This document shows positions 50,344 to 53,995 of a stretch of DNA of 64,000 bases, piece by piece. The stretch spans positions 186,001 to 250,000 of the forward strand of contig NZ_SOCA01000003.1 of NCBI RefSeq assembly GCF_004364345.1, in the 5' to 3' direction. The DNA is from Prosthecobacter fusiformis (GTDB taxonomy: Bacteria; Verrucomicrobiota; Verrucomicrobiia; Verrucomicrobiales; Verrucomicrobiaceae). The notes below the pieces were generated by a model, which was given only the letters and a program-made list of their open reading frames with translations, had not been told where the DNA came from and did no database searches. Each line of letters begins with the position of its first letter. Position 1 is the stretch's first letter. Made by a program: the position numbers and the translations under genes.

Positions 50344-51399
50344 TCATGCCTTGTTCAGGAGCAGGACCCTGAAAAGTCTGCCCATGAAGGCTGGGTGTGT
50401 CAGGGAGTGATACTGGCGTAAGAGAGCCTGGGTTTCTGAATCCATCTTTCCTTCCAGCCCTGCCAGCCAAGGGAGGCCTAGTTTGCCCAGGAAGCGGCCT
50501 TGCAATTCATACGTCTGCTGTTTCATGCCGGAGGATTCGGCAACTTCGATGAGGCGGGTGAAATTGACATGGGTTGTGAGGTCGCATTCACCTAGATCTT
50601 CCAGCACCCGATCATCGGTCTGGTGATTTCGATAACGGCGTATAGTCCCGGTATTGCGCTCAGGGGAATACAGTTCTGCTGCATCGTATCCATAATCAGC
50701 GATGTAGATGGTTCCCCGGAAGGGGGAGGCTGCCAGCTCAACTATCCAGTCCATCGCGGCCAGATTCACCTCGGTTGTGTATCCGGCAGGTAGGTCTTGG
50801 GGCAGGCCAGTTAGCTCTCTGGCCAGTCTTTCTGTGGAGGGTGGGCCGGGTATCAACCCAGGGCGATGATCTTCCTGCGCCTGCACATACAGCTCCTTCC
50901 AGGCTGTACCGTCCCACTGCACCAAGTGTACCGGCATGGCATCCGGCAGTTCATTGCAAAGGTAAAAGGCAGTTACGGCAGGCACTGCGGATAGGGAGGA
51001 GACCCATCGGACCCGGTCGCCAAAAGGGGCAAGACGTTGACGCTGAACAGCTTCGTAGCGTGGATTGGGTTCAACGATCAGATAGGGCTTATCCACGGTG
51101 GAGAGGATATCCTCCGCTAGCTGTCCATCGTGTGCGGCCTGTTCGATGATGACAAAGTCTGCCGGATGGCCCATCTCCTGGTACGTTTGTTCAGCCAGGT
51201 GCCCCAGCAGTTTTCCATAAAGAGGGCCGACGGATACGGCGGTGTAAAAGTCTCCCCCTCGTCCTATTCGGCGGGGCTTTGGGCCATAGTATCCCTGAAC
51301 AGGGTGATAAAGCGCCTGTTCCATGACATGGGCAAAGGTAAGTCCGCATGCTGATGACGCTGAAATTTCATCGTGCAAAATGCGAGTCAGTGAGGTCAT
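50344..51399 (-). CDS. SAM-dependent methyltransferase, MidA/NDUFAF7-like (DUF185)
   Basis: 351 residues. The N-terminal signature PVQGYYGPKPRRIGRGGDFY, then SVGPLYGKLLGHLA, VIIEQAAHDGQLAEDIL (SAM site), YLCNELPDAMPVHLVQW and GTIYIADYGYDA define the MidA/NDUFAF7 family, whose human member dimethylates an arginine of complex I. In bacteria a protein-arginine substrate is possible but unproven. Convergent with the SMP-30 gene, and upstream of a divergent class A PBP gene. Confidence 0.88.
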   Translation of the reverse strand: MTSLTRILHDEISASSACGLTFAHVMEQALYHPVQGYYGPKPRRIGRGGDFYTAVSVGPLYGKLLGHLAEQTYQEMGHPADFVIIEQAAHDGQLAEDILSTVDKPYLIVEPNPRYEAVQRQRLAPFGDRVRWVSSLSAVPAVTAFYLCNELPDAMPVHLVQWDGTAWKELYVQAQEDHRPGLIPGPPSTERLARELTGLPQDLPAGYTTEVNLAAMDWIVELAASPFRGTIYIADYGYDAAELYSPERNTGTIRRYRNHQTDDRVLEDLGECDLTTHVNFTRLIEVAESSGMKQQTYELQGRFLGKLGLPWLAGLEGKMDSETQALLRQYHSLTHPAFMGRLFRVLLLNKA

Positions 51400-51469: not shown

Positions 51470-53995
51470 ATGTTCGGCAAAGATTCGGAAACTAAACCCC
51501 AGAAGAACTGGCGCGGCGAGTCCGGCCTGAAGCTCCCATTTTACCGCCGAGTCTGGTTCAGTGCCCTCATGGCGTTGATCATTTTGATCGGGTTGGCAGG
51601 CCTGGGGACGTATTCCATTATTGTGGCACCTTTGCATGTGAAGGCGCAGACGTACGACCTTGAAGAGATCCGCAAACTGGAAGCTGCGAGCATTATTTAT
51701 GACCGGAATGGAGAGGAACTCTCCCGCATTTATGTGCTGAACCGTACTCCGGTTCCCATCAAGGATGTGCCGCAGCATTTTATTGATGCTTTGACCGCCC
51801 AGGAAGACAGCCGCTTTTTTCAGCATGACGGGGTGGATTACATTGGTCTGACCCGTGCTGTGCTGGAAAACTTGAAAGCTGGCCGAACAACCCAAGGCGC
51901 TAGCACCATTACCCAGCAGCTGGCCCGGCAGACTTTCGGGCTGATGGAAAAAGACTATAAGCGCAAGATTGTAGAAGCGTTTGTGGCCCAGCGAATCGAG
52001 AAAAAATTCAGCAAACCTGAAATTCTGGAGCTTTATCTGAACCGCATTTTCTTCGGTAAAAACTTCTACGGCATTCAGGCAGCGTCGCTGGGTTACTTCG
52101 GCAAGGATGCCAAAGACCTCAGTGTGGATGAAGCCGCCACCATTGCCGGTCTGATCAAGAGCCCCAACAACATCGAGCCGATCCGGCACCCTGAGCGTGC
52201 TGTGAAAGAACGAAACTACGTGCTGGAGCGCATGGTCATTGAAGGCACCCTGAAGCGGGATGAGGCCGAGCGCCTGAAGCTGAAGCCGATGGTGACTACG
52301 CCGCAGACGAGTGATCCCAGGCTAAGCTACGTGTTTGACGAAGTGCGTCAGGAAGTGGTGTCACTGGTCGGTGAAGAAAGGGCCTCCATTGGCGGATTCC
52401 AGATTTATACCAGCATTGACAGAGACCTCCAAAAAGCGGCGGAGGAAGCGATGAAGAAACGCCTGGCGGAGGTGGAAACACGTGCGGGATATCCCCATCA
52501 GACCTATACCCAGTTCCGTGGCATTTTGGGCGACTGGTTTGGGCTGAAAACGAAGGGCCTGTTGACGGCAGACATGCCCCGCCCGGTGCCAGAGTATTTG
52601 CAAGGGGCTGCTATCGTGATGGATAACACGGATGGCTCCATCCTGGCGATGGTCGGCGGGCGTGATTTTATCGACAGCCAGTATAATAGGGCGACGGACG
52701 GTGTGCGCCCAGTGGGCACCGCCTTCACCCCGTTTGTTTATGCTGCTGCGTTTTCCAAGCCAGGATATTTTCCGATGACGCCGCTGGCGGACGAGCCGCT
52801 GGATAACAGGCGCGTGATGATCGGCGGTCTGACCGGGATTTTAGGCGAATGGGGGATGGAAGTGGCGGATCCGAAATGGTCCCGCAATCCCATCAGCGCA
52901 CGGGAGGCTTTGGTCGGTTCTCATAACTCCGCCACCGTGCGATTGGGTGAGCGCATCGGCCTGGAAGGTGGACGAGTGAGGCAGGATTTCCGAGATTTTG
53001 CGAAAAGTGCTGGGATTCGCACACCCCTTCGTGAATTCCCTTCCACCTTCCTGGGTGCAACGGAGGCCCGACTGGATGAAATGTGCCTGGCTTACTCCTG
53101 CTTCCCCACGCTGGGCAAGCGCCCGGCCAAACAGCATCTGATCCAACGCATCACGGACTTCCGGGGTAAAACGGTTTTCCAACTGGACGAAAAGACACTG
53201 CAACCCGTCCGTGCGATGGATGAGATTGCCGCTTATCAAACGCATACCTGTCTGAGTGAAGCTCTTCATCGTGGGACGGGAGCAACGTCCATCGAATACG
53301 GCTTGGGTGATTTCCCTGCGGGTGGCAAAACTGGAACACACTACGAATCCAAGGATCTATGGTTCTTGGGATATACTTCCGCCGTCACCTGCGGCGTCTG
53401 GGTCGGGTTTGACCGGCAGAAGACGATCTATCCTGGAGCATTTTCCAATCAAATCGCCCTGCCGATCTGGACGGACGTCATCAATGCATCCACAAAGGTG
53501 CGGACCCCCCAGGAGATAACTCCTCCCGAATCGGCAGAAAGGATTGAGGTCTGCCGGGTCAGTGGCCTGCGTGCGACGGATTTCTGCTATGACAAGATCA
53601 AGGGGTCAGATGGTGTTGAGCGCTCTGTGCGCAGCACCTATTTCGAGTTTCTGCGCCCAGGGACCAGCTTCAACAATACCTGCCCTGTCCATACTGGAGA
53701 AGGATTGCCTGCGGATCTGGCTGCCTTTCATCAGGCGATCACGCATACAACGGATACCGCCCTGTTGGCGGGATCCAGCAAATTTGTCAATATTGAGCCG
53801 GTTCATCTCCAGGATCCCATCATCATTGGAGATGACCCCTACAATTCTGAAAAACCCGTGCTGCGTGCCCGTCCTGTGAATGATGACGGCACCCCCATTC
53901 TGCGAGCCGTCCCTGTGGGTGTGGATGAAGGTGGTTTCTCCGAGCAGCCCGTGATCAAGCTGAAGCCGCCGCCGACGATGAAGATTGAGCTGTGA
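51470..53995 (+). CDS. Class A penicillin-binding protein with altered transpeptidase motif
   Basis: 841 residues. A short cytoplasmic start and membrane helix (~29-52) lead to a GT51 glycosyltransferase: EDSRFFQHDGVDYIG, GASTITQQLARQTFG, EKKFSKPEILELYLNRIFFG and YFGKDAKDLS. The transpeptidase domain keeps SHN (S484) and KTG (K620) but its SxxK reads TAFT (T417, T420), with no Ser or Lys in the expected positions, so penicillin-sensitive cross-linking is doubtful. A helical/Pro-rich tail follows. The glycan-polymerising half should be active. AAGGG is nine bases before ATG 51470. No partner gene is beside it. Confidence 0.92.
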   Translation: MFGKDSETKPQKNWRGESGLKLPFYRRVWFSALMALIILIGLAGLGTYSIIVAPLHVKAQTYDLEEIRKLEAASIIYDRNGEELSRIYVLNRTPVPIKDVPQHFIDALTAQEDSRFFQHDGVDYIGLTRAVLENLKAGRTTQGASTITQQLARQTFGLMEKDYKRKIVEAFVAQRIEKKFSKPEILELYLNRIFFGKNFYGIQAASLGYFGKDAKDLSVDEAATIAGLIKSPNNIEPIRHPERAVKERNYVLERMVIEGTLKRDEAERLKLKPMVTTPQTSDPRLSYVFDEVRQEVVSLVGEERASIGGFQIYTSIDRDLQKAAEEAMKKRLAEVETRAGYPHQTYTQFRGILGDWFGLKTKGLLTADMPRPVPEYLQGAAIVMDNTDGSILAMVGGRDFIDSQYNRATDGVRPVGTAFTPFVYAAAFSKPGYFPMTPLADEPLDNRRVMIGGLTGILGEWGMEVADPKWSRNPISAREALVGSHNSATVRLGERIGLEGGRVRQDFRDFAKSAGIRTPLREFPSTFLGATEARLDEMCLAYSCFPTLGKRPAKQHLIQRITDFRGKTVFQLDEKTLQPVRAMDEIAAYQTHTCLSEALHRGTGATSIEYGLGDFPAGGKTGTHYESKDLWFLGYTSAVTCGVWVGFDRQKTIYPGAFSNQIALPIWTDVINASTKVRTPQEITPPESAERIEVCRVSGLRATDFCYDKIKGSDGVERSVRSTYFEFLRPGTSFNNTCPVHTGEGLPADLAAFHQAITHTTDTALLAGSSKFVNIEPVHLQDPIIIGDDPYNSEKPVLRARPVNDDGTPILRAVPVGVDEGGFSEQPVIKLKPPPTMKIEL

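Follow-up and report, generated by a model that had tools for sequence, protein, structure and literature searches.

We asked what becomes of a class A penicillin-binding protein (PBP) when the SxxK motif of its transpeptidase domain is lost. The question is raised by an 841-residue protein of Prosthecobacter fusiformis, whose gene occupies 51470..53995 of the forward strand (the whole open reading frame, stop included) in the window, by which we mean the entire 64,000-nucleotide stretch analysed. Translation bore out the initial annotation, which had placed threonine at both catalytic positions of SxxK: residues 413-424 are RPVGTAFTPFVY, and the site reads GTAFTPF, with T417-A-F-T420 encoded on the forward strand at 52718..52729 (T417, codon ACC, 52718-52720; T420, codon ACC, 52727-52729).

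The remaining parts of the protein, all on the forward strand, follow the plan of a class A PBP. An N-terminal membrane helix (residues 28-60; 51551..51649) is predicted from a hydrophobic stretch that is helical at 28-60 in the AlphaFold2 model. The GT51 glycosyltransferase domain (residues 81-255; 51710..52234) matched Pfam PF00912 (Transgly) with 210.4 bits and carries the catalytic glutamates. C-terminal to GT51 lies the transpeptidase domain (residues 379-638; 52604..53383), recognised by a weak PF00905 match (27.3 bits; cut-off 22.1) and by structural matches of the predicted model. Alignment placed the SxN motif, here SHN, at residues 484-486 (52919..52927) and KTG at residues 620-622 (53327..53335). 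Among the features that we used to define a class A PBP, GT51 with its glutamates, the C-terminal transpeptidase fold, SxN and KTG are present in the window protein, and TAFT stands in place of SxxK. The scores of two NCBIfam models were below their cut-offs (PBP_1a_fam, TIGR02074, 461.7 against 508.75; PBP1C/PbpC, TIGR02073, 306.1 against 494.2). Further downstream come a tail with C695, C706, C738 and H741 (53552..53692), whose columns are invariant or nearly so, and a C-terminal extension with conserved D789 and Y791 (53693..53992), where model confidence is mostly low. By eye, a Cys/His tail of similar kind is also seen in the SxxK paralogue of the same genome. The extension has a Pro-rich end beyond the cysteine tail in the window protein and its orthologues.

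Threonine 417 is held across a group of Verrucomicrobiota orthologues

Orthologues were collected from two sources. Of 387 genomes sampled from the phylum Verrucomicrobiota, 53 gave a match at E <= 1e-60, and from these 51 orthologues (L011-L061) and 19 paralogues (L062-L080) were taken, and a scan of named genomes contributed the best 80 of 557 relatives (L081-L160), making 131 orthologue rows. Since both sets were retrieved with the window protein or its alignment A1, these rows are a non-random sample, biased towards likeness to the window protein. The sequences of L017 and L156 are the same, and those of L014 and L106 almost so. The GT and the codon counts are each out of 130 rows, since L097 is without the GT part and L096 is absent from the codon count. 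Frames were read from stop to stop, and some, such as those of L035 and L153, reach beyond the likely start.

In a profile search of the 387 genomes, the 51 Thr-type matches scored at least 1006.9 bits, and the next proteins at most 665.6. The Thr type was present in 6 of 6 listed genomes of one family (f1) and in 37 of 38 of a second (f2, the exception being G351), together 43 of 44, and in five other families of the class, with 8 genomes between them; no Thr-type match was present in most of the 387. Among the best 80 of the 557 relatives, all titles belong to Verrucomicrobiota or its subgroups, including Prosthecobacter, Verrucomicrobium, Brevifollis, Akkermansiaceae, Chthoniobacter and Terrimicrobiaceae, and the closest were Verrucomicrobiaceae and Prosthecobacter metagenome-assembled genomes (MAGs; L081, 86% identical; the partial L097, 87%). 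Several lake MAG titles are doubtful, such as Akkermansia muciniphila for L089, which is 67% identical to the window protein.

Position 417 was Thr in 130 of the 131 rows and Ser in one, and no SxxK was found in any of the 131, the alignment in which the initial annotation had proposed to look for it. The site reads as in the window protein in two genomes of the same genus (91% and 84% identical); these and the Thr417 count in practice rule out a sequencing error or a strain-level mutation. All four Thr codons are in use at 417 (ACC 50, ACG 46, ACA 23 and ACT 10 in 130 rows, with one Ser AGT), and we therefore take the residue, not the codon, to be under selection. The sole Ser417 row, L118 (L118:1061-3784), has Leu at 420 and KGG at the KTG site, and in L153, a near relative, the two positions are Thr and Leu; the serine is probably a Thr-to-Ser change in a Lys-less site.

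The partners of residue 417 vary widely. Position 420 was Leu in 49 rows, Thr in 38, Lys in 19, Ile in 9, Phe in 5, Met and Val in 3 each, His in 2, and Gln, Ala and Ser in one each; Thr417 was present in 111 of the 112 rows without Lys420. The initial annotation had described the SHN motif as intact, which holds for the Prosthecobacter species of the window and fails for the group: only 56 of 131 rows have SxN, and the 75 that have lost it read mostly SKI or GxN. The motif was found in 17 of the 19 Lys420 rows against 39 of the 112 others (Fisher p 8e-6, kinship ignored), and TxxK, SxN and KTG occur together in 17 of the 131 rows. The KTG site, also described as intact, indeed reads KTG or KSG in 120 of 131 rows, with K620 and G622 in all 131. 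In GT51, likewise described as intact, E112, D113, H119, S145, Q150, E169 and K182 are present in all 130 rows holding the GT part, with R165, E177 and R192 less strictly conserved. The residues kept suggest that glycan polymerase activity is retained.

We consider it likely that the protein is an old peptidoglycan polymerase of the GT51 type, anchored in the membrane, and that its transpeptidase domain no longer forms an acyl-enzyme and is kept for binding or regulation. Retention of GT51, erosion of Lys420 and SxN, and a canonical paralogue in the same genome thus lend support, at the level of sequence, to the earlier suggestion of a glycosyltransferase whose second domain binds without catalysing. 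Against this reading, the 17 rows with TxxK, SxN and KTG have nearly the whole active site; a merely inert domain would not need the constraint seen on Thr417 and K620; and the gene is not universal, as G351 and the majority of the 387 genomes lack it.

Eight additional stretches of the phylum with weaker profile matches (L161-L168) were checked as further Thr cases. L162-L167 were rejected, having GS..K with SxN-type and KTG motifs, and L168 is a 357-residue frame without the motifs. L161 (L161:2-3499; genome G319, contig C113) was also rejected, as it has no Thr. It encodes in one frame a GT51 domain (209.5 bits), a degenerate stretch, a PBP_dimer domain and a transpeptidase domain (216.6 bits); the degenerate stretch reads NYLLSPF by eye at the SxxK site and gave no Pfam transpeptidase match. 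What L161 shares with the Thr clade is a transpeptidase-like stretch that lacks SxxK, placed after GT51; it differs in having neither the Thr nor GEWG (see below) and in being a class A plus class B PBP fusion, with PBP_dimer and an intact transpeptidase domain attached. Its N-terminus is cut at a contig edge, and it may be a rare fusion, because the full-length match occurs in 1 of 387 genomes, a single draft assembly. If real, it would be a second GT51 protein with a silenced domain, tied to an apparently working class B partner.

A single Ser-to-Thr change appears to have preceded repeated loss of the lysine

The order of these changes was examined on two trees, both built by a quick method. 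In a 71-row tree, the 51 Thr rows lie on one side of a branch with SH-aLRT 99 and the 19 canonical SxxK rows lie opposite; the root of this tree is unsure, because the PbpC-like outgroup and L078, both long branches, join. The depth of the Thr group and its single branch go beyond the earlier view, which was confined to one species. A second tree of 74 rows (68 from the Thr clade and 6 canonical, hand-picked for spread) requires at least 7 changes between Lys and not-Lys at position 420; such counts alone do not distinguish loss of Lys from regain. The Lys420 rows, among them L133 of Chthoniobacter flavus, are scattered over deep branches, with SxN and KTG mostly intact. Repeated regain of Lys in an otherwise complete site seems unlikely, and we infer from these sequences that Ser changed to Thr once and first, and that Lys was lost later, several times.

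The same history has another possible meaning. The serine may have been replaced once by a catalytic threonine with Lys still in place, after which K620 and the glutamates of the GEWGxE motif described below took over the duty of the base and permitted repeated loss of the lysine; we think this quite unlikely. If true, it would give a threonine acyltransferase in a penicillin-binding fold, insensitive to beta-lactams.

The transpeptidase domain is constrained and carries a clade-specific motif

Step counts per alignment column were made on a tree of 68 of the 131 rows, hand-picked for spread and representing 35.6 substitutions per site in all. The 287 transpeptidase columns had a median of 15 steps, and column 420 needed 23. 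In contrast to these, columns 416, 421, 460, 462, 464, 620 and 622 needed none and column 417 one; the SxN columns 484 and 486 needed 10 and 6. Nucleotide comparison of four pairs of close relatives (L011, L012, L013, L081) gave an NG86 dN of 0.028-0.072 for the transpeptidase domain, with dS at least 1.5 or saturated, so that dN/dS can be described only as 'well below 1'; dN was similar in two pairs of the canonical paralogue (0.040 and 0.067). Because the start of the helix (G416, T417, P421), K620, G622 and a new motif are held, the domain as a whole is not drifting. These substitutions indicate purifying selection on the transpeptidase domain; constraint has been lifted from the residues that partner the serine in acylation.

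The new motif lies at residues 452-464 (forward strand, 52823..52861; GGLTGILGEWGME in the window protein), a segment of low model confidence that was defined from column counts. Of the 131 Thr-type rows, 126 fit the pattern GxxxG[ILV]LGE[WYF]GxE, and five depart from it at one position each; G459, E460 and G462 are present in all 131 rows and E464 in 130. The GxxxGILGEWGxE motif was found in 0 of 19 canonical paralogues, which instead conserve P463 and N465 in this region.

These constraints bear on whether the domain could still be an enzyme. In a rebuilt active site, Thr417 would be the real nucleophile, activated by Lys420 in the rows that have it and in the others by K620 and/or a GEWGxE glutamate, and the protein would be a slow or differently specific acyltransferase or hydrolase. 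Few positions of the domain are conserved better than Thr417, K620, G622, E460 and E464, threonine persists in Lys-less rows through all four of its codons, as expected of selection on the residue, and some rows retain TxxK together with SxN and KTG. However, the Lys and SxN partners differ even among near relatives, and the motif loop, which may lie near the site, is of low model confidence (see below). In beta-lactamases and PBPs, a Thr in place of Ser at a site of this kind is usually inactivating, which also argues against a rebuilt enzyme. We regard it as unlikely, and keep it as a rival to the non-catalytic reading because Thr417, K620, E460 and E464 are so firmly held. H592 was considered as a new base and rejected: it is invariant in 30 rows, but in the 131 rows it is His in 112, Asn in 10, Ser in 7 and Thr in 2, and its column needs 8 steps on the clade tree.

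An ordinary active class A PBP that uses another serine as nucleophile is scarcely probable. Ser484 of SHN is available for this in the window protein, but of the 131 rows 99 have Ser at position 484, 31 Gly and 1 Ala, the column needs 10 steps on the tree, and no Ser occurs among the 24 transpeptidase columns with at most one step.

The mosaic erosion of catalytic motifs might also indicate a decaying paralogue on its way to a pseudogene. Against this stand the low dN, long conserved stretches, the near-constant presence of the gene in f1 and f2, and the lack of a stop in any of the 51 orthologue matches; we give decay almost no credence, and rejected a pseudogene on account of the low dN. 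When extended, one profile match, in genome G330, crosses a TAG.

The AlphaFold2 model, made from 49 rows, has a mean pLDDT of 82.9, with most of the transpeptidase core above 90 and the motif loop lower (55 for residues 451-460, 72 for 461-470). Its matches include Acinetobacter baumannii PBP1a (3ue1_B; Z 47.6, rmsd 4.1, 488 residues aligned) and Mycobacterium tuberculosis PonA1 (5cxw; Z 40.9, rmsd 2.3, 339 aligned), in a list from which the absence of a PDB fold does not rule that fold out. The transpeptidase domain is accordingly predicted, on the strength of the model, to keep the class A PBP fold.

The invariant new loop and the conserved C-terminal extension would suit a pseudo-transpeptidase domain whose main task is to dock a partner specific to the lineage, possibly a divisome protein or an activator from the outer membrane, with minor GT activity. 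The GT51 domain is, however, at least as conserved as the rest of the protein (mean top-residue fraction 0.642 against 0.587 in 66 thinned rows), and we judge this possibility to be very unlikely.

Thr-type genomes also encode a canonical class A paralogue

The genome of the window (5.8 Mb, nearly complete) has seven PF00905 and three PF00912 matches, with the window protein in both sets. By eye, each of the six other PF00905 proteins has a canonical Ser/Lys site; they were labelled, also by eye, as a PbpC-like class A protein (GSAIKPF), a class A paralogue (GSTVKPF, SRN, KTG), three class B-like proteins and one class D-like protein. The last of these, L004 on contig C1, is a 263-residue protein with STFK and KTG, resembling class D beta-lactamases by eye.

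A second match of at least 537.8 bits was present in 50 of the 51 Thr-type genomes; the other genome, G330, contains a paralogue stretch that reads GSSAKPF, SRN and KTG. Paralogue motifs were read in this stretch and in the 19 canonical-type matches, two of which (L076, L078) come from genomes without the Thr type. All 19 canonical rows have Ser and Lys, 18 have SRN and one SNN, and all have KTG. The canonical Verrucomicrobiota paralogue (L075, contig C11, in the genome of the window) is thus co-resident with the Thr-type protein, and differs from it in having SxxK and in lacking GxxxGILGEWGxE, as does its whole group. In L072 (G251), also a canonical paralogue, one search gave an in-frame TGA, and the profile search gave a 799-residue open frame without it.

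Upstream, on the reverse strand, the Thr-type gene has as its neighbour a Methyltransf_28 SAM methyltransferase gene (50344..51399; PF02636, 172.4 bits), which we take to be MidA/NDUFAF7-like and which is linked to it by position only. Of the 109 orthologue loci that extend 700 bases or more upstream, 87 have the divergent adjacent pair (84 by a distance rule, and L107, L112 and L132 by eye); a further 22 loci were too short, as were all 19 loci of the canonical paralogue. The arrangement was not found in the other 22 of the 109, including L029, L031, L036, L037, L039 and L040 of f2 and several loci with Chthoniobacter or Spartobacteria titles. Six other neighbours in the window were each found in few of the 80 named loci.

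Relation to known penicillin-binding proteins

Class A PBPs of the PBP1a family are the best sequence and fold matches of the window protein. It shares with A. baumannii PBP1a (3ue1/3udf) and Escherichia coli PBP1b (5hlb) the membrane helix, GT51, the transpeptidase fold and KTG, and differs in having Thr for the nucleophile Ser, Thr for Lys and another loop before SxN.

E. coli PBP1c binds beta-lactams poorly. In PMC6131605 it is suggested to act where extra glycosyltransferase activity is needed, and is counted among the proteins with transpeptidase activity. The PbpC-like protein of the window's own genome, with GSAIKPF and a very long branch in the tree, is unlike the Thr-type protein.

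Bacillus subtilis PBP 2B is a class B PBP, without a GT domain. Its S309A variant is described in PMC5656894 as having a structural role independent of catalysis; this is a laboratory mutant, whereas the Thr clade is natural. An inactive PBP with a role beyond catalysis is therefore already known from the laboratory. Among the titles and abstracts listed in searches of open-licence papers, none reported a naturally occurring class A PBP in which Thr replaces the catalytic Ser, or a clade of such proteins.

A paper on the loss of class A PBPs classes Akkermansia among the bacteria that have an aPBP (PMC8406291). The same paper lists Chlamydia as without class A PBPs, while a PDB entry named Chlamydia trachomatis Pbp1a (7u4h) matches the GT51 part of the window protein; the organism given for that entry may deserve a second look.

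A probable glycan polymerase with a putatively silenced transpeptidase domain

Taken together, the preferred reading, that of a polymerase with a non-catalytic second domain, would proceed as follows. After the single replacement of Ser by Thr and the later, repeated loss of Lys, the GT51 domain would go on polymerising glycan strands from lipid II, and other enzymes, namely the SxxK paralogue and the class B PBPs, would cross-link the strands. The pseudo-transpeptidase domain would persist because it binds a stem peptide or a partner or gates the GT domain. Beta-lactams would not be expected to acylate the Thr-type protein, the loss that the initial annotation had foreseen. The protein thus probably makes wall strands without cross-linking them and without being blocked by penicillin, as far as its residues allow a judgement.

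By definition class A PBPs combine two enzymes in one, and they are counted as penicillin targets; here a deep lineage keeps a class A PBP without the penicillin-reactive serine. If the preferred reading is true, annotation of the Thr-clade proteins as transpeptidases or beta-lactam targets would be wrong. The surviving TxxK forms look like intermediates, which opens the non-catalytic role of the transpeptidase domain to study, and the Thr clade offers a natural experiment in which glycan polymerisation is uncoupled from cross-linking.
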